A stretch of DNA of 64,000 nt, taken from NCBI GenBank assembly GCA_944325065.1, contig CALUYS010000006.1, positions 1 to 64,000 on the forward strand. The letters are read 5' to 3'. Position 1 is the stretch's first letter. Each line of letters starts with the position of its first letter. The notes beneath the pieces are model-generated. The model was not told where the DNA came from. It did no database searches and saw only the letters and a program-made list of their open reading frames with translations. The position numbers and the translations under genes are program-made. The DNA is from Candidatus Gastranaerophilales bacterium (GTDB taxonomy: Bacteria > Cyanobacteriota > Vampirovibrionia > Gastranaerophilales > Gastranaerophilaceae). Shown one piece after another: positions 1,449-56,444 of this stretch.

Positions 1449-2726
1449 TTATAATAAAATTCCTGCTATAGAAGCTGAAATATATGAAGCAAAAGTTCCA
1501 CATATAAGTGCTTTTATACCCAATCGTGACAGATTTTTTCTTTGATTTGAAGCCATTTCTCCGACACCACCTATAAGTATTGCAATTGAACCTAAATTTG
1601 CAAAACCACATAAAGCAAACGTGGCAACAACAAAACTTTTTTCACTTATTATATCTCTTATTGAAACTAAATCAATATATGCAATGGTCTCATTTAAAAT
1701 AAACTTTTCTCCTAATAACGCACCTACTTGTGCTGATTCATTAAATGGAACACCCATAAGATATGCAAAAATTGCAAAAATTTTACCAACAATCATTTTC
1801 ATAGAAAGATTTGTTAAATCAAACCCTAAAAACATTTGATTAAAATGAAGAGCATGATGTAAAAATAACCCAAATTTTACCAAAAACCAATCTATCATAG
1901 CAATTAAAGCAACAAGTGCTATTAGAACAGCCACTACATTAATTGTAACTCGCATTCCTTCCTGTGCCCCCATTGCAATTGAATCAATTACATTAACGTG
2001 AGTTCGTTTTCTTGATATTTTTATATCATTCATTGTTTGAGGTACATCAATTTCTGGGTATACAATTTTAGATATAACTAAAGCACCTGGAGCTGCCATT
2101 ATCGAAGCAGCAAGAAGATACTGTGCAGGGATACCCATACCTACATAAATAGCCATAACTCCTCCTGAAATACATGATAAGGACCCCGTCATCGAAGCAA
2201 GAATCTCCGATTTTGTCAAATTTGGTAAATATGGTTTTATTAAAGACTGTGCTGCAACTTGACCTACAAATGAAGATGCCAAATTTGATAAAGCCTCAGC
2301 ACCTGAAACATTTAATAGTCTAGTCATTAACTTACCCAAAAAAGCCACTACTCTTTGCATTATACCATAATAATACAAAATATTAACCAAAACCATCATA
2401 AAAATCATAGCTCCCATAAGTTGTAATGCAAATATATGAGAGTTTTGACCAAAAAGTTCTGTTAGCTTTTCTGGGTTTCTTGTTAATGGACCAAAAACAA
2501 AATCTGAACCTATTTTTGCAAAATCAAGAATTTTTTGGATAAACCCACCTATAGTTTCAAATATTTTTATTCCAAGTGGTATTTTCAAAATAAAAACTCC
2601 AAGAAAAAATTGAAGCAAAAATGCTCTTGTTATTGTTTTTATGGATATTCTTTTTTTGTTATTCGACATTAAAAATGCTAATAATAAAATAAAAATAATA
2701 CCAAATATTCCAAAAAATCTATCCAT
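1449..2726 (-). CDS. nupC: NupC-family concentrative nucleoside transporter
   Basis: A 425-residue polytopic membrane protein of normal length for the CNT/NupC family, which imports nucleosides with Na+ or H+. It shows the family order: an N-terminal hydrophobic region, a 'GSDFVFGPL' segment near residue 75, a gate-like region, a nucleoside-transporter core with 'ALSNLASSFVGQ..A' near residue 150, and a 'GVPFNESAQVGALLGEK' segment near 325. A C-terminal 'ALCGFANLGSIAILIGG' helix follows. The ATG at 2726 is the first start and leaves a complete first helix. The gene is monocistronic between the tRNA and a divergent hypothetical gene. The family is confident; substrate preference cannot be read from the sequence. 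Confidence 0.92.
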   Translation of the reverse strand: MDRFFGIFGIIFILLLAFLMSNNKKRISIKTITRAFLLQFFLGVFILKIPLGIKIFETIGGFIQKILDFAKIGSDFVFGPLTRNPEKLTELFGQNSHIFALQLMGAMIFMMVLVNILYYYGIMQRVVAFLGKLMTRLLNVSGAEALSNLASSFVGQVAAQSLIKPYLPNLTKSEILASMTGSLSCISGGVMAIYVGMGIPAQYLLAASIMAAPGALVISKIVYPEIDVPQTMNDIKISRKRTHVNVIDSIAMGAQEGMRVTINVVAVLIALVALIAMIDWFLVKFGLFLHHALHFNQMFLGFDLTNLSMKMIVGKIFAIFAYLMGVPFNESAQVGALLGEKFILNETIAYIDLVSIRDIISEKSFVVATFALCGFANLGSIAILIGGVGEMASNQRKNLSRLGIKALICGTFASYISASIAGILL

Positions 2727-2863
2727 AATATCTCTCTTTCATTTTTAATATATTTATATTATTTTAATGATAAAATAAAAAACAAAATTTAATTGTTACA
2801 ATTTTTTAATATTGTTGTTCAAAACTAGCAAAAAACATTTTTACAAGCATTAAAATAATTATA

Positions 2864-3715
2864 ATGTCAATGATAGATTTTTATCCTATGGTTCCAAAAA
2901 TAGATTATCAACCTTATAATAGTGTTGAATTTGAAAGTAAAAATAGTTCAAATAACAAAAATAAAAATACTGACAACACTTCAAAAAATAATATCTTGAC
3001 TCCTAACGTCAAACAGTATCCAATTTTACAAGTTCAAACCCCACAACAACCATTTATAGTGCCTCAAAATATTATGTTAAGTTATAAAAATAAAGTGGGG
3101 AACAATCCTAATTTTATATATGGAGTTATTGGTGCCATCGTTACAATAATTGTAATTGGTAGTGGTTTTCTATTGAATAATACTAATTTGAGACAAAAAA
3201 TCTCATCTTGGTGGAAAAAAACTTGGGAAGTAAAAAATTCCTATCATCCAAATATTGTTCTTGATAACCCAAAGGATATTAAAGAATATCGAAAAAACGT
3301 TGTAAGTAATCTTGTAAATGATAAACGGTATAAAAATGATTTGAAATGTATTGATATTTTTACAGGTAATAAAACTCCTCAAGAAACCAAAGATATTTTA
3401 TCAGATGTTTATGAAATAGCAAAAACAATAAGTTATAGTAATTATAAAACACCAAAAGTTTCCATTCTTTTAAAACAAGATGCTGGTATTTTGAATTTAA
3501 GTAGTATTGATTCAAGTCTGGATGATTTTGATGTAGATATTTTAAAAAATGGCGTTTTAAGTAAAATAAAACAAATAAAATTAGGTTTTGTTACAAAGGA
3601 TAATGACTATACTGCATATACAAAAGCAACTATTTCACAAAATAAAAATGAAACAAATTATAGTATAAATTTTGCTAGGATGATAAGACGGTTTTTTGCT
3701 AATTTTTCAGATTAA
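2864..3715 (+). CDS. Hypothetical single-span membrane protein with Asn/Gln/Pro-rich N terminus
   Basis: Not a recognised family. The first 75 residues are rich in Asn, Lys, Pro and Gln and low in complexity. One clear membrane helix follows at about residues 84-105 (an Ile/Val/Gly-rich stretch), then a charged C-terminal domain of about 170 residues. There is no cleavable signal peptide because the hydrophobic segment is internal. It is transcribed in the same direction as the flagellar genes 130 bp downstream but is not obviously part of that operon. Its architecture resembles other hypotheticals in this window, for example the gene at 61094-62539. Confidence 0.6.
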   Translation: MSMIDFYPMVPKIDYQPYNSVEFESKNSSNNKNKNTDNTSKNNILTPNVKQYPILQVQTPQQPFIVPQNIMLSYKNKVGNNPNFIYGVIGAIVTIIVIGSGFLLNNTNLRQKISSWWKKTWEVKNSYHPNIVLDNPKDIKEYRKNVVSNLVNDKRYKNDLKCIDIFTGNKTPQETKDILSDVYEIAKTISYSNYKTPKVSILLKQDAGILNLSSIDSSLDDFDVDILKNGVLSKIKQIKLGFVTKDNDYTAYTKATISQNKNETNYSINFARMIRRFFANFSD

Positions 3716-3849
3716 TTTTAATATTTTTAATTGTATTTAGAAAATATAAAAAAAATACTTTAAATAGAGTATTTTAGATATATTTATGGATATTTTTGAC
3801 AAAAAAGTCGATATCATTAAAAGAGAATTATAATCTTTGAGGCGATATT

Positions 3850-46669: not shown

Positions 46670-47587
46670 ATGAATTCTTTAACTATAAATAATATTAAAT
46701 TTAAACCTATATGTGAAGATAGACTTATATTTTATTTAAAAAAATTATTTAAATTTAAAAATCCAACACAAAAAATAAAAAAAATATATTTAGATATCAT
46801 AAATAAATATTTGATATCTCCAAAGCTAAATTTGGAACACTATATTTTATATAATACCAATGAAACTGTTCAAATTATTGAAACAATTTGGAATAGCTCA
46901 ATTTATGAAATATATAAGGTTAATTACAATTATTCAGATATTTTAATGCAGAATCTAAATCAAATTTTTATTTTAAATGAATTTGAAAAAAAAATATTTG
47001 AATCTAAAATAATTTTGGAACCACTTATTAGAAAATCAGGGTTAAATCTAAATATACCAACAACAAAAAAACTTATACTAACCGAAGGGATAACAGAACA
47101 ATTATTGTTACCAAGATTTGCACAAGTTTATGGTTACGATTTTGAGCAAAATAATGTGGAACTCATTCAAGCAGGTGGCAAAAATCAAGTTGCAAAATAT
47201 TATCTTGATTATATCAACTATGTTAAAATTCCCATAATTATTTTACTTGATAGTGATGCAAAAACTATTTATGATATTTTAAAATCAAAACTTAGAAAAT
47301 CAGATAAAATAATTATACTTAAAACTGGAGAATTTGAAGATTTGCTTTTATCTTCACTTATTAAAAAAGCTATTAATTCAAATTTTAAAAATGTTGTTCA
47401 AATTAACATTTCCGATATTGATAAAAATATATCAAAAGTGGAAGCTTTGGAAAAACTTTATCGTGTTAAGTGTCTAGGAGATTTTCAAAAAGGTGAGTTT
47501 GCTAAACTTATTGAAAAAAATATTTCAAATAAAACACACCTTTCAAAATCTATTATTAATATTTTAGATATTATAAAAAATGTTTAA
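46670..47587 (+). CDS. TOPRIM-domain protein (OLD-like)
   Basis: 305 residues. The first 130 are helical and unassigned. 'KLILTEGITEQLLLPRFAQ' (Glu139) and 'IPIIILLDSDAKTI' (Asp194, Asp196) are the two metal-binding motifs of a TOPRIM domain like those at the C terminus of OLD-family nucleases. The ABC ATPase part of OLD is absent here. It may be a stand-alone nuclease or a repair/defence factor. Flanked by a converging rhodanese gene, 1 bp from its stop. Confidence 0.75.
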   Translation: MNSLTINNIKFKPICEDRLIFYLKKLFKFKNPTQKIKKIYLDIINKYLISPKLNLEHYILYNTNETVQIIETIWNSSIYEIYKVNYNYSDILMQNLNQIFILNEFEKKIFESKIILEPLIRKSGLNLNIPTTKKLILTEGITEQLLLPRFAQVYGYDFEQNNVELIQAGGKNQVAKYYLDYINYVKIPIIILLDSDAKTIYDILKSKLRKSDKIIILKTGEFEDLLLSSLIKKAINSNFKNVVQINISDIDKNISKVEALEKLYRVKCLGDFQKGEFAKLIEKNISNKTHLSKSIINILDIIKNV

Positions 47588-48171: not shown

Positions 48172-48411
48172 ATGGATGAAATAAGTTTAAGAAGTCAAAT
48201 AGCTCAAAATATAAGAATTTATCGTGCAAAATTTAATATAACTCAGGAACAACTTGCAAATATGTGTAACACTACACAACAATATATTAATCAAATTGAA
48301 AATGAAAAAGTAACAATTAGTGTATATACATTATTAAAAATTGCAGAATCACTTGAGATTGAAGCTAATGATTTAATTTATGCTTCAACCTTAAATAAAT
48401 CTTTGCGATAA
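48172..48411 (+). CDS. XRE-family helix-turn-helix regulator
   Basis: 79 residues, essentially one HTH_XRE domain (about residues 8-65): 'NIRIYRAKFNITQEQLANMCNTTQQYINQIENEK' then 'LLKIAESLEI'. It is a small DNA-binding repressor of unknown target. Its last 34 bp overlap the 3' end of the converging purD gene. Confidence 0.9.
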   Translation: MDEISLRSQIAQNIRIYRAKFNITQEQLANMCNTTQQYINQIENEKVTISVYTLLKIAESLEIEANDLIYASTLNKSLR

Positions 48412-49628
48412 TATTTATTTTTAAATATTAATTCATTTACAAACTTATATATATCATTTTTATTGAATGAACATAAGGAGAGAACTCGGCCACCATTGGA
48501 CAAAAGTTTGTCTTCTTTTTTTTTGACATTTGCAAAATAAACATCAACATTTTTGTATTTTTGCTTTAATTCTTTTAAATTTAATATTTCATCACCAATT
48601 ATAGGTTGCTGTGGATAACCTTTTGACGATACTACAAGACAATAGGATTTTTTATCATTCCATTTTAATTTTATTTTATCTAAATTTTTATTCTTTGCAT
48701 ATATTAAAATTTTAAGGAAATCAGTTTTCAAAGATGTCAGCAAAGCCTGTGTTTCAGGGTCACCCAAACGCATATTATATTCCAAAACTTTTATACCATT
48801 ATAAGTTAAGATTAGACCGCTATAAATAAATCCAATAAAATCAGCTTTTTCAGAAATAAGAGCTTCTTGCAATTTTTTTAAATATTCATCAATCTGATTT
48901 TTATATTTATCTTCAACAATTACTGGGCAATATGCCCCCATACCACCTGTATTTGGACCTAAATTATTTTCATACAGTCTTTTATAATCTTGAGAATATA
49001 AAAAAGGCAACAAAGTTTTCCCGTCAAATAAGCTGATAAGTGAAATTTCATCACCTTCTTGATATTGTTCAACCAAAACTTTTTTTGAAGCTTCACCGAA
49101 CTCTCCATTTAAAAGTGTTTTTAGTTTTTCTTTGGCAACTTCAACATCATCACAAATAAAAACACCTTTTCCTTTACATAAACCATCTGCTTTCAAAACT
49201 ATTTTTGTTTGGTTATATTTTTTTATAAATTCAACAAATTTTGTGTCGATATCTTCTTTTGAATTTATTATTTCAAAATGACTTGTAGGGATATTATATT
49301 TTTTCATAAATTTTTTTGCAAATATTTTGCTTGACTCAAGAGTTGAAAAATGTTTGTTTGCACCAATTGTTGAAATCCCATAAGAATTTAAAATATCAAC
49401 AATACCATTTGAAAGGGGTTCTTCAGGTCCAATTATAGCTAGGTCTATTTTATATTCATTACATTTTTTAGCTAAATCATAAAAATCACAAAATTTAACC
49501 ATTTCTCCTAAATCTTTAAATCCCTCATTTGGGTTTGCAAGAAACAACCTTGACAAAAATTTTGACTGTGAAATTTTTTTTGCAATTATATGTTCTCGAG
49601 CACCTGAACCATAAACAAGTACATTCAT
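48378..49628 (-). CDS. purD: Phosphoribosylamine-glycine ligase
   Basis: 416 residues beginning at 'MNVLVYGSGAREHIIAKKI', the typical PurD start; an ATG six codons earlier is less likely. ATP-grasp motifs are 'IGPEEPLSNGIVD', 'VLKADGLCKGKGVFI', 'EISLISLFDGKTLLPFLYSQDYKR' and 'PNTGGMGAYCPV', then 'EYNMRLGDPETQALLT'. It makes GAR, the second step of purine synthesis. It sits at the end of a minus-strand run, away from other pur genes. Confidence 0.95.
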   Translation of the reverse strand: MNVLVYGSGAREHIIAKKISQSKFLSRLFLANPNEGFKDLGEMVKFCDFYDLAKKCNEYKIDLAIIGPEEPLSNGIVDILNSYGISTIGANKHFSTLESSKIFAKKFMKKYNIPTSHFEIINSKEDIDTKFVEFIKKYNQTKIVLKADGLCKGKGVFICDDVEVAKEKLKTLLNGEFGEASKKVLVEQYQEGDEISLISLFDGKTLLPFLYSQDYKRLYENNLGPNTGGMGAYCPVIVEDKYKNQIDEYLKKLQEALISEKADFIGFIYSGLILTYNGIKVLEYNMRLGDPETQALLTSLKTDFLKILIYAKNKNLDKIKLKWNDKKSYCLVVSSKGYPQQPIIGDEILNLKELKQKYKNVDVYFANVKKKEDKLLSNGGRVLSLCSFNKNDIYKFVNELIFKNKYYRKDLFKVEA

Positions 49629-49659
49629 TTTTCTTTTACCATACAATATTTATCCATTT

Positions 49660-49992
49660 CTATTTAAACAAAAAGATAGCTATTATCAAACTTAATACAA
49701 AAAAAAGATTTTGAATGTTTGTATAAAAATTAATTCGTTTGTAATTTGCAAATATACCAATCACAAACGGAATAAAAATAAACGGTAATAATATCAAATT
49801 TAAATATTGTTTAAAAATAAAAGATTTGACACAAATTATCATAATTAAGCAAAGATAAAAAACCAAAATTACTGTTAGCAAAACTGAAAAATTAGCCATT
49901 AATTTAGGTCTATCTAGTTTTAAAAAACATTGAGCAACTACAAATGCAAGAATAAGCAATATATTTATAATAATAAAAAAATTAATTAACAT
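49660..49992 (-). CDS. Hypothetical small membrane protein
   Basis: 110 residues with about four hydrophobic helices and few charges: 'FFIIINILLILAFVVAQC', 'FSVLLTVILVFYLCLIMII', 'LNLILLPFIFIPFVIGIF' and 'NLFFVLSLIIAIFLF'. No family recognised. It overlaps the alpha/beta-hydrolase gene by 11 bp and precedes purD by 31 bp. Confidence 0.65.
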   Translation of the reverse strand: MLINFFIIINILLILAFVVAQCFLKLDRPKLMANFSVLLTVILVFYLCLIMIICVKSFIFKQYLNLILLPFIFIPFVIGIFANYKRINFYTNIQNLFFVLSLIIAIFLFK

Positions 49993-50821
49993 TATTTATA
50001 ATTTCCTTATTTTGTTTTAATTTATATAAAAATTCAACACTTTTATCAAAGACAAAATCTTTATCATTATCATATAACATAAGATGATAGCTGTTGTTAA
50101 GTATAAATAATTCTTTTTTTGTTGAATTTATATTATTATAAACAAACTTTGCACTTTTTACACTTGTTAAATCATCATCTTTTGAATGCATAATTAAAAT
50201 AGGAGATATTACTTCATTCATATTTTTACGAGCTAATTTAGATAATTTCAGAAGTTCATAAACGCAACTGAGCGGGTAATTATCCATGGCGATTGAATTT
50301 TTACCCATTATCTTTTGAATACTTCTTCTTTTTTTTATATTTTTTATACCATACGGCTCACGTTCGGGGAATGTATAATAATAACGAATCAAAGTATATA
50401 ACCCCAAAGGCATCATAAAATTATACCAAGGAATGGTCCAACCATCCAAATATAATGTTGTTGAAAGAGAAATTATACCACTAACTTGAGATTTATACTT
50501 TTGTCCTAGGATAAGAGCTAAGACAGCTCCTAAACATAAACCACCCAAATATACATTATTATATTTTTTCTTTAACTTTTTAAATTTATAGCTAGCAAAA
50601 CTTATCCAATCTAAATAACGAACAGATCGTATTTGACAAGTATCTTCACCATGACCTGGAAGACAATATGCAAAAACATCATAACCTTGTGAGTGTAAAT
50701 GTTGTGCATATTTTTTCATCTCAAAAGTACTGCCTGTTAATCCATGAAAAAGTAATATGGCATTGTTATATCTGTTATTTTCACAAATAAACTCAAAGTC
50801 TAAATCAGGTGAACTTTTCAC
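49982..50821 (-). CDS. Alpha/beta hydrolase (carboxylesterase/monoglyceride lipase-like)
   Basis: 279 residues, GTG start. 'NAILLFHGLTGSTFEMKKYAQHL' holds the oxyanion loop and 'YCLPGHGED' the cap start. The nucleophile elbow is unusual: 'VYLGGLCLGAVLAL' has Cys where Ser is usual (G-x-C-x-G), giving a possible Cys nucleophile. 'ILIMHSKDDDLTSV' supplies the acid and 'NNSYHLML' the His. The likely substrate is an ester or thioester. It lies 2 bp after the aminotransferase gene. Confidence 0.82.
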   Translation of the reverse strand: MKSSPDLDFEFICENNRYNNAILLFHGLTGSTFEMKKYAQHLHSQGYDVFAYCLPGHGEDTCQIRSVRYLDWISFASYKFKKLKKKYNNVYLGGLCLGAVLALILGQKYKSQVSGIISLSTTLYLDGWTIPWYNFMMPLGLYTLIRYYYTFPEREPYGIKNIKKRRSIQKIMGKNSIAMDNYPLSCVYELLKLSKLARKNMNEVISPILIMHSKDDDLTSVKSAKFVYNNINSTKKELFILNNSYHLMLYDNDKDFVFDKSVEFLYKLKQNKEIINNVN

Positions 50822-50823
50822 AA

Positions 50824-52215
50824 TTATCTTTCTAACCTCATAAATAATTGATCTAAAAGTTCTATTGCCATATTTATTTCATCTTTTGTAATATATAAAG
50901 AAGGTACAAATGTTATAACATTTTTATAATAACCACCATTATTTAAAACAAGGCCACATTTTTTGCCTTTATAAGTTAAATCACCCTTTAATCCTTCTTC
51001 TTGAAGTTTGTCACATAACTCACGATTAGGAGTAAATCCATCGGTTTGAGTTATTTCCATACGTAATGCAAGACCTAAACCATCAACATCACCGATAACA
51101 GAATATTTTGATTTTAAAGTTTTAAGTCCCTCTAAAAAAAGTTGACCTTTTTCATTAACACTTGTTTCAAAATCCTCTTCTTCCATAATTGACATAACTT
51201 CATATCCCGCTCTTGTTCCCAAAGGATTTGAAGAATATGTAGAATGAGCTCGTCCTGGTGGGAATATATCAGGTGCAATTAGCTTTTCTTTAGCCCACAA
51301 TCCTGCAAGCGGATTTAAACCATTTGTTAAAGACTTTCCAAATGTGATTAAATCAGGAGTAACACCAAAATGCTCAATAGCCCATAATTTTCCTGTTCTA
51401 TAAAGTCCCATTTGTATTTCATCAACAGCAAAAACTATATTAAATTCATCTAAAACTTTTTTTAATTCTTTAAAATAACCTTTTGGAGGTACAACATATC
51501 CGCCTGTTCCAAGCAATGGTTCGCAAATAAATGCACCGAATTCACAATCTCCTGTTTTTCTATCGTAAAAAGAATTATATTCACTTTCAAAATTCTTCGC
51601 AAATTGCTTTACACAATAGAAGTTACAATTTTCGCATTTTTTTCCATAATGACAACGAAAACAATAAGGGAATGGAACAAAATGTGCTCTATCTGAAAAA
51701 TGACCATATGATTCACGATAACGATAACTTGATGTAATACAAGATGCCCCTATTGTTCGACCGTGATAACCACCCATAAATGCAAACTGCCTATTTTTAT
51801 GGGTATAATTTCTCAAAACTTTTATAGCATCTTCAATAGCCTGTGCTCCGCCAACATTGAAATGAACACGCCCCTTTTCTCCAAATCTTTTTATCATACC
51901 TTTTGCTATTTTTTGAGACAATAAAGCTTTATAATTATATATAAATTTTGGTGCAATCCCTGGCATTGTATTTATTTGGTCAATAACAGCTTCACTTACA
52001 CGCTTATTTTTATATCCAAGATTACAAGATGCATACCACATTTGAAGATCTAAATATGGGGTATCCTTACTATCATACATGTATGATCCATTACATGATG
52101 AAAATATTTTTGGTAATTCGCTATAATGTGCCGTATCTCCCCATGAGCAATACTTATTATCAAGTTCACGTATTTGTTCATCAGTCAAATTATTTACATC
52201 TTCTTTTAATATCAT
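50824..52215 (-). CDS. Class III PLP-dependent aminotransferase with cysteine cluster
   Basis: 463 residues. PLP fold motifs are 'HFNVGGAQAIEDAIKVLRNYT', 'AFMGGYHGRTIGA', 'FAVDEIQMGLYRTGKLWA' (Asp265) and 'LITFGKSLTNGL', with Lys294 as the Schiff base. Residues 185-201 hold five Cys (C-x2-C-x5-C-x2-C-x3-C) in an insertion, which could bind zinc. Similar inserts occur in 4-aminobutyrate-type aminotransferases. The substrate is probably an omega-amino or diamino compound. A GAGG site precedes the ATG. It is third in the radical SAM-HAD-aminotransferase-hydrolase run. Confidence 0.9.
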   Translation of the reverse strand: MILKEDVNNLTDEQIRELDNKYCSWGDTAHYSELPKIFSSCNGSYMYDSKDTPYLDLQMWYASCNLGYKNKRVSEAVIDQINTMPGIAPKFIYNYKALLSQKIAKGMIKRFGEKGRVHFNVGGAQAIEDAIKVLRNYTHKNRQFAFMGGYHGRTIGASCITSSYRYRESYGHFSDRAHFVPFPYCFRCHYGKKCENCNFYCVKQFAKNFESEYNSFYDRKTGDCEFGAFICEPLLGTGGYVVPPKGYFKELKKVLDEFNIVFAVDEIQMGLYRTGKLWAIEHFGVTPDLITFGKSLTNGLNPLAGLWAKEKLIAPDIFPPGRAHSTYSSNPLGTRAGYEVMSIMEEEDFETSVNEKGQLFLEGLKTLKSKYSVIGDVDGLGLALRMEITQTDGFTPNRELCDKLQEEGLKGDLTYKGKKCGLVLNNGGYYKNVITFVPSLYITKDEINMAIELLDQLFMRLER

Positions 52216-52265
52216 TCTTCTACCTCGTCCCTTTTATTATTTATAAAGCTTTATAATATAATTAA

Positions 52266-52898
52266 CTATATTTTTATGTCGTTAAAACTATTAAATCTAA
52301 TATAGGGTATATTATTTCTACTCAAATATATAGCTAAATAATTTTTAGCATATATTTTATTCATTTTACCTGAAACACAAACATCTGACAAGCCATCACC
52401 AATATAAATCAAATCATGTTTTTCAAGTCTTTCAACTTCCACAACATTACATTTACAAACTCCTGATTTTCTTTTGCATAATTTATATTTATCATCATAA
52501 ATCGGAATAAATTTACCATCTATTTTTTCAAGTTTATTTGCAAAAACCTTAATACCTTCAATATTATATTTTTTTAAAACATTATATATAAAGATATCAA
52601 ATCCGTCACTTACAATTGTAAATTTAATATTTCTTTTTTTTATTTCATTATAAAAATCGAGAAATGTTACATCAATTTCTAAACTATCAAAAAAATCTTC
52701 CAATTCTTTTTTAGAAAGTGTTCTCACAAGTTCCATTTGCTGTTTTAAGCATTCCCTTGATCCAATTTTGCCATCTTTCCATAGTTTTTCAATGTCAAGC
52801 CATTTATCATTTGCAAAAAATTTAAGAAATTTTCCGATTGTATCTTCTTTGGTTATTGTACCATCAAAATCACAAAATATTTGAAATTCTTTATACAT
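52266..52898 (-). CDS. HAD-superfamily phosphatase, MtnX/SerB-like
   Basis: 210 residues. HAD motif I is 'FCDFDGTITKED' (Asp10, Asp12) and motif II 'FTIVSDGFD'. A 'CKRKSGVCKCNVV' stretch near 135 matches the MtnX-like subfamily. Motif IV is 'IYIGDGLSDVCVS'. MtnX removes a phosphate in methionine salvage, but no other salvage gene is here. It probably dephosphorylates an intermediate made by its neighbours, the aminotransferase 50 bp downstream and the radical SAM enzyme 55 bp upstream. Confidence 0.85.
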   Translation of the reverse strand: MYKEFQIFCDFDGTITKEDTIGKFLKFFANDKWLDIEKLWKDGKIGSRECLKQQMELVRTLSKKELEDFFDSLEIDVTFLDFYNEIKKRNIKFTIVSDGFDIFIYNVLKKYNIEGIKVFANKLEKIDGKFIPIYDDKYKLCKRKSGVCKCNVVEVERLEKHDLIYIGDGLSDVCVSGKMNKIYAKNYLAIYLSRNNIPYIRFNSFNDIKI

Positions 52899-52953
52899 AA
52901 CTTTTTTATTATATTACAAATAAAAAATCATGGACAAATTTTTTACAAAAAAA

Positions 52954-53799
52954 TTAATCAGTAAAAAATCTCTTATTTTTTTTCAAACATAAACTACAAC
53001 ATGGTGCTTCTAAGTAAGTTTTTGTTGAAAATTCGTTTAAATCAGGTCCACTTCGACCACGATAATCATTTGCTAGAAAGTTACAACAATATACACCTTT
53101 TGATGTTAAAATTCGACTTGTTTTGCAATCAATATTGTCAATTTTATAATCCATTTCCAATAATTCATCATCTACTTTAGATTTATCATAATAAGGAATT
53201 ATTTTAACATTTTGTTTTGGCAAATAAGCATTATATCTTGCTAAGATTTGATTAAAACCATTAAGTAAATTTTCTTCGTTTTCATCATAATAATTTGTAC
53301 ATAAAATTATTGGAGAAAAGTCATATTTTAAAAGACTTATAATAGCATTTATACTTTTACGGAATATTCCACGTCCTTTTAAATCATCAACTTTAAACTC
53401 ATCATAGTGTTCAATACCTATTTTAAAATACAAGTTTGAATTGTCAAACTCGTCTTCAACTTTTGCAAAAAAACGTGCTTTTTTATCATTTATATTAACA
53501 CCATTTGTAATAATTGTTGTATTAGTTTTTCTTAAAGACATTCTTAATATATTATTAAACTGAGGATGCAACAAAGGTTCACCTCCAGTAAGGTAAATAT
53601 TTTCAACAGATTTTGTTGCATTAGAGTATATTGTATTTTTTATTAAATCAACAGATATAAAATCCGATTTTTCTAATTTTTTATGTGGAGTTATATAACA
53701 ATGTTTACATCTTAAATTACAATTAGCATAAGTAAGCTGTATAAAAAGATTTTCAAGTCGATTTAACTCACAAACCTGTGATGTGATTATTTTATCCAT
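52954..53799 (-). CDS. Radical SAM enzyme with extra C-terminal cysteines
   Basis: 281 residues. The 4Fe-4S/SAM motif is Cys27-x3-Cys31-x2-Cys34 (NCNLRCKHCY), and 'YLTGGEPLLHP' is the glycine-rich SAM loop. The C terminus has six further Cys (225, 238, 239, 267, 268, 271), which could hold an auxiliary cluster as in SPASM/twitch enzymes. SPASM members often modify peptides or sugars, but no precursor peptide is visible nearby. A TAAGGAG site starts the transcript, making this the first gene of the run ending at purD. Confidence 0.85.
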   Translation of the reverse strand: MDKIITSQVCELNRLENLFIQLTYANCNLRCKHCYITPHKKLEKSDFISVDLIKNTIYSNATKSVENIYLTGGEPLLHPQFNNILRMSLRKTNTTIITNGVNINDKKARFFAKVEDEFDNSNLYFKIGIEHYDEFKVDDLKGRGIFRKSINAIISLLKYDFSPIILCTNYYDENEENLLNGFNQILARYNAYLPKQNVKIIPYYDKSKVDDELLEMDYKIDNIDCKTSRILTSKGVYCCNFLANDYRGRSGPDLNEFSTKTYLEAPCCSLCLKKNKRFFTD

Positions 53800-54018: not shown

Positions 54019-55215
54019 ATGAGCTTTTTCCCAAATAAATATCAAAAATTATTTTCACAGATCAAAGAAAATGCGAGAATTGCAATATACGGAACTTGTG
54101 ATTTAGGCTTAAAAATAAAAGAAAATTTGGAAATTTATAGACCTGATATTCAGCTTTTATGTTTTTTAGATTCTTTTAAAGAGGGTAAAATTAATAATTT
54201 AAGAATCAATTCTCCTTTTGAATATGAAAATTTAAATAATGAATTTGATTATATAATAATTTCATCAATTACAAATAAAAATAAAATTGAAATAATTCTT
54301 AATAATTTGAATTTCTACAATATCATATTTTTAAATAAAGATTTTACAAAATATAATGATGGTTTTATTATCTCAGAAGAATTATACAAAAAATACAAAA
54401 TATCAAAAAAAATTTTTGAAACGAAAAATGAACAAAAATTATATAAAATGTTATTTTTAAATATTTTATCGGGATTTAAAAACAACAAAAAACTGCTTGA
54501 TTTTAATCAAAAATTAAGAAAAAAATATTTTAAAAATGAAATTTGTCCACAATATTGTGAATATTTAAATAAAGATGTTATAAAGACAGTAATTGATGGT
54601 GGAGCTAATACTGGAGAAATATCAACTATTTTTTCCTCTCAATTTAAAAATGTAGAAAAAATATATGCTTTTGAGCCTTTATATAATATGTGCAAAAAAG
54701 AATTTGAGGACAAATTAATTTCAAAAAACGACAAAATAAAGATTGTTGAAAAAGCACTTTGGGATAAAAAAGAAACTTTGCAATTCAAAGCTATTTCCCA
54801 AGCAGCATACACAGGTTCATCTGTAAAAGATGTTTCAAACACAATTACTTTAAGCAAAGAAGGGGATTTTATTAATATTGAAGCCATTTCAATCGATGAA
54901 TTTGTTGCAGAAAATAATGTTGAAAAAGTCGATTTTATAAAAATGGACTTGGAAAACTCTGAACTTAATGCACTAAATGGTGCAATTGAAACAATCAAAC
55001 GTGACAGACCCCAAATGGCAATTTGCATATATCATTCTTTTGAACATTTTGTTGAAATCCCTTCATTGCTTAATAAAATGCTTGACGATTATGTATACAA
55101 ATTATACTATGACCCTATTGACAGACTTTGTGAAGTCATAATCCAAGCTGTTCCAAAAGAAAAATATAAAAAAAGACATAATTTATTATGGACAAAACTT
55201 TTCAAGAAGCAATAA
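54019..55215 (+). CDS. FkbM-family methyltransferase
   Basis: 398 residues in two parts. The N-terminal Rossmann-like segment (about 20-110, 'IAIYGTCDLGLKIKENL', 'FDYIIISSIT') is of the type found on sugar-modifying proteins. The C-terminal FkbM methyltransferase domain starts with 'VIDGGANTGEISTIF' and ends with 'VDFIKMDLENSELNALNGA' and 'PQMAICIYHSFEH'. It probably O-methylates a surface sugar or lipid. It overlaps folC by 28 bp. Confidence 0.88.
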   Translation: MSFFPNKYQKLFSQIKENARIAIYGTCDLGLKIKENLEIYRPDIQLLCFLDSFKEGKINNLRINSPFEYENLNNEFDYIIISSITNKNKIEIILNNLNFYNIIFLNKDFTKYNDGFIISEELYKKYKISKKIFETKNEQKLYKMLFLNILSGFKNNKKLLDFNQKLRKKYFKNEICPQYCEYLNKDVIKTVIDGGANTGEISTIFSSQFKNVEKIYAFEPLYNMCKKEFEDKLISKNDKIKIVEKALWDKKETLQFKAISQAAYTGSSVKDVSNTITLSKEGDFINIEAISIDEFVAENNVEKVDFIKMDLENSELNALNGAIETIKRDRPQMAICIYHSFEHFVEIPSLLNKMLDDYVYKLYYDPIDRLCEVIIQAVPKEKYKKRHNLLWTKLFKKQ

Positions 55216-56444
55216 ATATACTAAATAAAAATGGTAAATTTTATATCGAACTTGGTTTAAGCAGGATAGAAAAAGTTCTTAAACTAATTAATAATCCTCA
55301 AGAAGATTTAAAAATAATTCATATTGCAGGTACAAATGGCAAAGGTTCAACTTGTGCAATGTTATGTGAGTTATTAAAAAATACCGGACTTAATGTCGGG
55401 CTTTACACCTCTCCACATATTTTATCATATTGCGAAAGAATACGGATAAACGATAAAAATATTGAAGAAGATGATTTAACCGAACTTATTTTTAAAATCG
55501 AAAAGATTTCAAAAGAAAACAATATACAATTAACAGAATTTGAAATATTAACAGCTGTAGCATTTTTGTATTTTAAGAAAGAAAATGTAGATGTTGTTAT
55601 TTTAGAAACAGGACTTGGCGGACGTTTTGATGCAACAAATATTGTAAAAAAGCCTATTTTAACTATTATAACTTCAATATCAATTGACCACAAAGACCGT
55701 CTTGGGAATACAATTGAACAAATAGCATTTGAAAAAGCAGGAATAATAAAAGAACATGTTCCTCTTGTTATTTCAAAATATAATCAAGGATTTAACGTTA
55801 TAAGAAATATTGCCATTCAAAAAAATGTTAAAGTTATTTTGAATGAAAATGATATAAAATTAAATTTCAAAAACAACAAAAACTATGTTAAAATTAATAG
55901 TAGTGAAGAATATGAATTTAATCTTTTAGGCTTATGGCAAGCTGAAAATCTTAATTTAGTTTTAAAAGCATTTGAATATTTAAAAGATAATTTATTAAGA
56001 AATAGAAAATATGATAAACAAAAAGTACTAAAAGATAGTTTAAAAAATGTAAAATGGGATTATCGTTTTCAATTTATAAATAATCACGTTATTTTAGATG
56101 GAGCACACAATTTTGATGCTGCAATAAAATTAAGAGAAAGTCTTGATTTTTACTTTAAAAACAAAAAAATTCAATTTATATACGGTTCCTTAAACACAAA
56201 AGAGTATGAAAAAATCGTAAATGTATTGTTCACTTCAAATGATAAAGTTTTTTTATATGATTTTAATTGTCAAAATGCAGTCAAAGCAGGTGATTTAGAA
56301 AAAATAATAACTCAACCTGTGAAGATACTGAATAAATCAGAAGTTTTAAATATTATTAATAATGAAACAAAAGATAAAATATTAACAGTAATATGTGGGT
56401 CTTTTTATATGCTAGGTGAGATTTTTGAAAAAAAAGTCGTTTGA
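55188..56444 (+). CDS. folC: Folylpolyglutamate synthase/dihydrofolate synthase
   Basis: 418 residues, normal for FolC. The P-loop is 'IHIAGTNGKGSTCAMLCELL', followed by 'YTSPHILSYCERIRIN', 'VVILETGLGGRFDATNI', 'SIDHKDRLG' and the C-terminal 'VILDGAHNFDAA'. It adds glutamate to folate. Its final codons and stop form one arm of the terminator serving the converging rplK-rplA transcript. Confidence 0.95.
   Translation: MDKTFQEAINILNKNGKFYIELGLSRIEKVLKLINNPQEDLKIIHIAGTNGKGSTCAMLCELLKNTGLNVGLYTSPHILSYCERIRINDKNIEEDDLTELIFKIEKISKENNIQLTEFEILTAVAFLYFKKENVDVVILETGLGGRFDATNIVKKPILTIITSISIDHKDRLGNTIEQIAFEKAGIIKEHVPLVISKYNQGFNVIRNIAIQKNVKVILNENDIKLNFKNNKNYVKINSSEEYEFNLLGLWQAENLNLVLKAFEYLKDNLLRNRKYDKQKVLKDSLKNVKWDYRFQFINNHVILDGAHNFDAAIKLRESLDFYFKNKKIQFIYGSLNTKEYEKIVNVLFTSNDKVFLYDFNCQNAVKAGDLEKIITQPVKILNKSEVLNIINNETKDKILTVICGSFYMLGEIFEKKVV

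Follow-up and report, generated by a model that had tools for sequence, protein, structure and literature searches.

The first 64,000 nucleotides of contig CALUYS010000006.1 (assembly GCA_944325065.1), here called the window, contain on the minus strand a gene for a phosphatase of the HAD family (HAD), one for a class III pyridoxal phosphate (PLP) enzyme of aminotransferase type (AT), one for an alpha/beta hydrolase (ABH) and one for a small membrane protein, TM110. These four genes form a cassette which is kept together throughout the order Gastranaerophilales, and that HAD, AT and ABH make up one pathway unit is well supported. Our preferred explanation, held at slightly below even confidence, is that the three enzymes carry out three steps of one uncharacterised pathway to an acylated amine and are, with TM110, its minimal cassette in Gastranaerophilales; the substrate, the order of the reactions, the product and the acyl link in the window's genome are the parts which we infer. 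Conservation of the cassette in the order, together with the position of its core beside fatty-acid enzymes in other phyla, points to such a pathway and towards a fatty-chain amine. The source genome is a 1.86-Mb draft, and its close relatives carry the label Candidatus Gastranaerophilales. The features of the cassette are as follows.

52266..52898, minus strand: HAD-IB phosphatase, MtnX-like; 210 aa, DFDGT at residues 10-14, C141...C148xC150, GDGLSD at 167-172; PF12710, 1.1e-13
50824..52215, minus strand: class III PLP enzyme ("aminotransferase", AT), the core of the cassette; 463 aa; PF00202 (Aminotran_3), 1.6e-71
51334..51336, minus strand: PLP lysine of AT, Lys294, kept in 102 of 103 homologues
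51505..51507, minus strand: Thr237 of AT, at the switch-Glu position; Thr or Ser in 102 of 103 homologues
50911..50913, minus strand: Thr435 of AT, at the position of the Arg that binds the alpha-carboxylate; Thr in 102 of 103 homologues
51613..51663, minus strand: Cys cluster of AT (C185, C188, C194, C197, C201)
49982..50821, minus strand: alpha/beta hydrolase of monoacylglycerol-lipase type with a Cys nucleophile (ABH); 279 aa; PF12146 (Hydrolase_4), 3.9e-26
50534..50536, minus strand: nucleophile-elbow Cys96 of ABH in GLCLGA, with triad partners in D215-D217 and His246
49660..49992, minus strand: TM110, a small membrane protein with four predicted helices; 110 aa; its start shares 11 bp with the ABH gene

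A sequence-only reading had proposed a small-molecule pathway run of four genes, consisting of HAD, AT, ABH and a radical SAM gene upstream of them. The four open reading frames (ORFs) are present on the minus strand with intergenic gaps of 55, 50 and 2 bp, and their coordinates and Pfam/NCBIfam matches bear out the families and motifs that had been given, including six Cys residues in the C terminus of the radical SAM protein, a five-Cys insert in AT and the Cys in the elbow of ABH; the TM110 gene had been overlooked. HAD, AT and ABH hold up as one conserved unit. The radical SAM gene was rejected as a pathway member by synteny. Scattering in close relatives, which had been named as grounds for giving the proposal up, was found for the radical SAM gene; HAD, AT and ABH stay together. 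No described pathway with this gene set was found in the open-access literature searched, in agreement with the earlier remark that no standard pathway was known.

Loci for comparison were picked by AT similarity alone, and partner counts rest on hidden Markov model (HMM) thresholds set by us; many loci are draft contigs, on which absent partners may be assembly gaps. AT has a patchy distribution: it was counted in 31 genomes of the order, among them the window's own and one with a degenerate copy, and in 5 of the class. Among 47 distinct loci of the order, ABH adjoins AT in 43, TM110 is near in 42 and HAD is near in 39, being adjacent in 32; HAD stands beside AT in all five class loci. None of 16 control loci, taken around paralogous class III aminotransferases of the same genomes, had HAD, ABH or TM110. 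HAD, AT and ABH lie together far more often than chance would allow. Spacing between AT and ABH in the order is mostly -4 to +5 bp (-4 to +33 bp covers most loci), and between ABH and TM110 mostly -16 to -4 bp; such tight spacing suggests that AT, ABH and TM110 are translationally coupled. In the AT tree the sequences of the order lie on one side of a branch with a support of 93, just below the 95 mark, a grouping which fits inheritance inside the order. One sequence labelled Clostridiaceae (L093) falls inside Gastranaerophilales in this tree and probably comes from a mislabelled metagenome-assembled genome (MAG).

A diverged AT copy (L060, G041:C81, positions 2421-3791; about 46% identity) has Asp in place of the PLP lysine. 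No HAD or ABH is left at this locus and a TM110-like ORF still adjoins, so that it looks like a decaying cassette.

AT has identities of 61-75% within the order, of about 55% within the class and of 54-62% with other phyla. The PF00202 match and Lys294, which is Asp only in the degenerate copy, place it in the class III family, and R153 is retained. In class III transaminases a Glu and an Arg form a switch which admits 2-oxoglutarate. AT does not have the pair by which 2-oxoglutarate-dependent members (GABA-AT, OAT, ArgD) are recognised. The counterpart of Thr237 is Glu in PuuE, Asn in a GabT1-type aminotransferase and Cys in the human ethanolamine-phosphate phospho-lyase ETNPPL; that of Thr435 is Arg in PuuE and in Ala/Ser racemase, and Lys in the GabT1-type enzyme and ETNPPL. 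The change from Glu/Arg to Thr is functional and not a sign of decay, because both positions are nearly invariant (102 of 103 homologues). The AlphaFold model, in which residues 149-175 are poorly modelled, matches class III folds with Z of about 42; top Foldseek and phmmer matches include amino acid racemases. The model bears out the class III fold without telling transaminase, lyase and racemase apart. Equivalog cut-offs were missed for argD (208.5 versus 410) and GABA transaminase (205.9 versus 506.65), and the PbfA model gave 217.5 against a cut-off of 525. For this family, labels like "aspartate" or "4-aminobutyrate aminotransferase" are probably mistaken. The Cys cluster was discarded as a special feature, since paralogous aminotransferases of the same genomes carry its PxCxRC start; four of its Cys are shared with the GabT1-type enzyme, and C194 is specific to the order.

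HAD scored 101.5 bits with TIGR01489, the MtnX-like subfamily (cut-off 81.55), and its closest solved relative is MtnX (2fea, 2.9e-18); it retains DFDGT and the C...CxC segment. Assignment to MtnX of methionine salvage (TIGR03333, 89.6 versus 303.2 bits) and to the phosphoserine phosphatase SerB (48.6 versus 144.15) was rejected. The nearest solved relatives of ABH are lipases, among them thermostable monoacylglycerol lipases. A check of the elbow Cys in homologues had been recommended by the sequence-only reading; it was Cys in every homologue of the order that was read and therefore is not a sequencing error in the window. It is Cys also in Rhizobium, Agrobacterium, Phyllobacterium, Magnetococcales and a Sulfurihydrogenibium MAG, and Ser elsewhere; Asp and His of the triad are retained. 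TM110 was modelled by AlphaFold with a pLDDT of 93.8. It has no Pfam family and no match in the PDB at E < 0.1, and profile comparison gave no similarity to EamA, of which it had been considered a diverged half.

For the distribution outside the order, the AT alignment was scanned against 84,980 genomes and a plasmid search was added. The scan gave records from Omnitrophota, Acidobacteriota, alpha-, beta- and gammaproteobacteria, Chlamydiota, Magnetococcales and genomes labelled Myxococcota and Aquificota; Rhizobium, Agrobacterium, Bartonella and Xanthomonas were contributed by the plasmid search. A core of HAD and AT, with or without ABH, recurs in Omnitrophota, Acidobacteriota, Pseudomonadota, Chlamydiota and Aquificota. 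HAD is the most constant partner of AT, lying next to it in 44 of the 51 loci from outside the class. Other recurring partners, assigned by Pfam, are a FemAB-like/GNAT protein, pairs of EamA half-transporters, a DegT-type aminotransferase, an arginase-like protein, acyl carrier protein (ACP), a FabF-like ketosynthase and an acyl-activating (acyl-AMP) ligase. RefSeq annotation of Rhizobium, Agrobacterium and Xanthomonas plasmids agrees independently on the acyl partners, and in Rhizobium sp. Pop5 these occur with a fatty acid desaturase and a cyclopropane-fatty-acyl synthase. Fusions were also found: HAD with ABH (L046), and the C-terminal domain of an acyl-AMP ligase with ACP and ABH in a Legionella MAG (L114); in a Magnetococcales MAG (L134) ABH is followed by a region which resembles, by eye only, the N terminus of GNAT. 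No published description of the gene set or of its parts was found in the open-access literature searched.

Acinetobacter rathckeae carries the whole cluster twice on one contig in identical layout (L107 and L109, NZ_VTDO01000003.1), which is either a large duplication or an assembly artefact. In plasmids of Bartonella from bat faeces (L143, plasmid of Bartonella sp. HY406), AT, GNAT and arginase-like genes follow one another; a gene for an MBOAT O-acyltransferase is close by, and HAD was not found.

The proposed pathway takes its logic from azasugar clusters, which consist of three genes for the aminotransferase GabT1, a phosphatase and the dehydrogenase GutB1, and in which a phospho-ketose is aminated and then dephosphorylated (PMC8382821). 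By analogy, AT would aminate a phosphorylated aldehyde or ketone, and HAD would strip the phosphate to leave an amino alcohol or amino polyol; we base this on the azasugar scheme and on the GabT1-type enzyme, which likewise is without Glu and Arg. ABH could then, by its Cys-His-Asp triad, cleave or transfer an acyl (thio)ester, giving an acylated, lipid-like amine. In other phyla ACP, ketosynthase, ligase and GNAT would act with ABH to attach, remodel or release the acyl chain, and TM110 might anchor the complex at the membrane or aid the movement of the product. In Gastranaerophilales the acyl group would need to be drawn from the housekeeping pool, or else the product may be unacylated. The sequence of steps suggested previously, i.e., make, dephosphorylate, aminate and release, does not agree with azasugar clusters, where amination comes first, and for the hydrolase a simple release function gives way to acyl handling, as is suggested by its neighbours.

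Several observations weigh against this pathway. Loss of Glu and Arg alone is no proof of transamination of a phospho-carbonyl compound, since human ETNPPL is without both, too; the azasugar stretch SGNxFRxxxFPN is not present in the window's AT, and the cassette has no dehydrogenase gene. Alpha/beta hydrolases are generic, and ABH is near AT in just 32 of the 51 outside loci. A GNAT-family and a convincing arginase-like partner were both sought in the window's own genome and were not found, so that the acyl part of the proposal rests on other phyla; for the same reason the gut order is taken to hold HAD, AT and ABH with TM110 as the sole addition. In favour of the pathway, on the other hand, GNAT-family proteins were found in 6 of 98 relatives, all six AT-positive; for independent genomes the chance of this would be about 0.002, but the genomes are not independent. 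The GNAT protein of outside loci gave no significant BLASTP or HMM match with the ceramide-synthase homologue YghO, and kinship with ceramide synthases (CerS/YghO) was ruled out for it by this absence of sequence similarity.

The three-gene core of the window is the minimal form of a cluster family whose range runs from Omnitrophota and Acidobacteriota as far as Rhizobium and Agrobacterium plasmids. As a wider proposal, we tentatively suggest that an undescribed cluster family, present in at least six phyla, produces a bacterial aminolipid of a new kind, namely an acylated amino alcohol or amino polyol; its version in gut Gastranaerophilales would be a pared-down one based on a hydrolase with a Cys nucleophile and a small membrane protein. 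If this is true, there would be a new lipid or lipid-like compound for many environmental bacteria and for an uncultured gut order; the product could be sought in cultured hosts such as Rhizobium and Phyllobacterium.

The main rival to the acylated-amine pathway, in our judgement unlikely, takes the "aminotransferase" for either a racemase or a PLP lyase, be it a phospho-lyase (as is ETNPPL) or an ammonia-lyase (as is bacterial PbfA), working in the salvage or degradation of a phosphorylated or acylated amine, where ABH would deacylate, HAD dephosphorylate and the PLP enzyme eliminate. It could draw on the racemases among the best structure and sequence matches, on the Glu/Arg pair missing as in ETNPPL, and on the precedent of PbfA, which was annotated as a transaminase and shown to be a lyase after changes in key residues had been noticed (PMC8154272). 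However, the ACP, ketosynthase, acyl-AMP ligase and EamA pairs of outside loci favour synthesis and export over breakdown, the PbfA model scored far under its cut-off, and a phosphatase next to a phospho-lyase would waste the same substrate. Quite improbable is an action of AT on a carrier-bound beta-ketoacyl group, with release of a beta-amino fatty acid by ABH and with HAD serving another building block. Lipopeptide synthases have class III amination domains that act on such groups; ACP and a FabF-like ketosynthase adjoin AT-ABH in loci of Methylotenera, Thermoanaerobaculia, Ferrovum and Omnitrophota, and the fusion of ACP with ABH would suit this as well. Yet ACP and ketosynthase are present in just 13-14 of the 51 outside loci and hardly in the order, and the most constant partner, HAD, would be left without a role.

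Generic domain labels would also allow chance neighbours with housekeeping functions, namely MtnX of methionine salvage, an ornithine- or GABA-type transaminase and a lipase; this is hardly credible in view of the missed equivalog cut-offs for MtnX, SerB, argD and GABA transaminase, the clustering across phyla and the fusions. The four-gene scheme of the sequence-only reading, with the radical SAM enzyme making the substrate, is highly improbable as well. Its support comes from the short distance between the gene and HAD downstream of it, 55 bp in the window and about 60 bp in the genus's other member, but most genomes of the order have the gene, many of them without the cassette, and it lies there on other contigs, with comF and pilN/pilO as neighbours. 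The gene and its product are described by:

52954..53799, minus strand: radical SAM protein; 281 aa, C27xxxC31xxC34, conserved C225, C239, C268 and C271; PF04055, 1.3e-18

Among 99 related genomes, radical SAM homologues are near-universal in the order, with 36-50% identity outside the genus, and many of these genomes are without the AT family; outside the window's own genus the gene was never on the contig of AT, and it adjoins HAD-AT only in genomes G000 and G001. It neighbours the cassette locally without being a conserved part of it, and would act elsewhere; in the window's genus it may be co-transcribed with the cassette. Where its surroundings in relatives were read, they contained comF, a 104-aa ORF and pilN/pilO-like genes. 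At L005-L022 a twitch-like radical SAM gene is kept beside this ORF, comF, a histidine kinase fragment and the pilN/pilO-like genes, and an uncharacterised enzyme linked with competence or type IV pili is possible. Four of the six C-terminal Cys (225, 238, 239, 267, 268, 271) are kept in relatives; these and CxxxCxxC at 27-34 are, judged by eye, closer to a twitch than to a full SPASM domain.

Downstream of the cassette lies a housekeeping gene which is outside the conserved part:

48378..49646, minus strand: purD, 13 bp after TM110; TIGR00877, 394 bits, above cut-off

It is found behind TM110 also in G001, but in none of the other genomes of that comparison. Elsewhere in the window, positions 46670-47587 encode a stand-alone protein with an OLD-like TOPRIM domain and, by Pfam, no ATPase domain. 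An FkbM methyltransferase gene, divergent from the radical SAM gene and upstream of it, overlaps the folC ORF by 28 bp (54019-55215 and 55188-56444) and is kept in the sister genome.

Among known systems, the azasugar cluster was compared using a GabT1-type aminotransferase from a Paenibacillus polymyxa plasmid, encoded beside gutB1 and a HAD phosphatase, as yardstick; AT is 27% identical to it over 423 residues. In both systems a class III aminotransferase (PF00202) stands beside a phosphatase, which in azasugar clusters can be a HAD protein of PF12710 (PMC8382821). Both aminotransferases have a PYCxRC...C...C segment and are without the Glu/Arg pair (Asn/Lys in the GabT1-type enzyme, Thr/Thr in the window). 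In contrast, of the consensus SGNxFRxxxFPN...LxVPxPYCxRC only the PYCxRC end is present in AT, no GutB1-type dehydrogenase is among the neighbours in the window and none was noticed among recurring partners elsewhere, the third gene is an alpha/beta hydrolase, and the outside partners are acyl enzymes. Membership in the azasugar clusters was ruled out by the missing dehydrogenase and diagnostic motif.

Human ETNPPL (6tor) and PbfA are likewise class III PLP enzymes with annotations of transaminase type, and ETNPPL superimposes on the AT model with Z 40.9 and an rmsd of 2.4 over 383 residues; but ETNPPL has HGH where AT has HGR (R153), and the gene neighbours of both are quite different. With MtnX, the 2-hydroxy-3-keto-5-methylthiopentenyl-1-phosphate phosphatase, HAD shares the HAD-IB subfamily TIGR01489, whereas it is far under the equivalog cut-off and has no methionine-salvage genes among its neighbours. 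The Hydrolase_4 monoacylglycerol lipases and esterases (4ke9, 3rm3) resemble ABH in fold family and arrangement of the triad; unlike them, ABH of the order has a Cys nucleophile and is tied to HAD-AT, and elsewhere it is fused to HAD, ACP or a GNAT-like region. Bacterial sphingolipid and aminolipid gene sets contain serine palmitoyltransferase, ACP, acyl-ACP synthetase and an N-acyltransferase (PMC9386255, PMC11631085). No serine palmitoyltransferase was noticed in the clusters described here, and their GNAT protein is unrelated to YghO, but both kinds of cluster group ACP, an acyl-activating ligase and an N-acyltransferase round a PLP enzyme.

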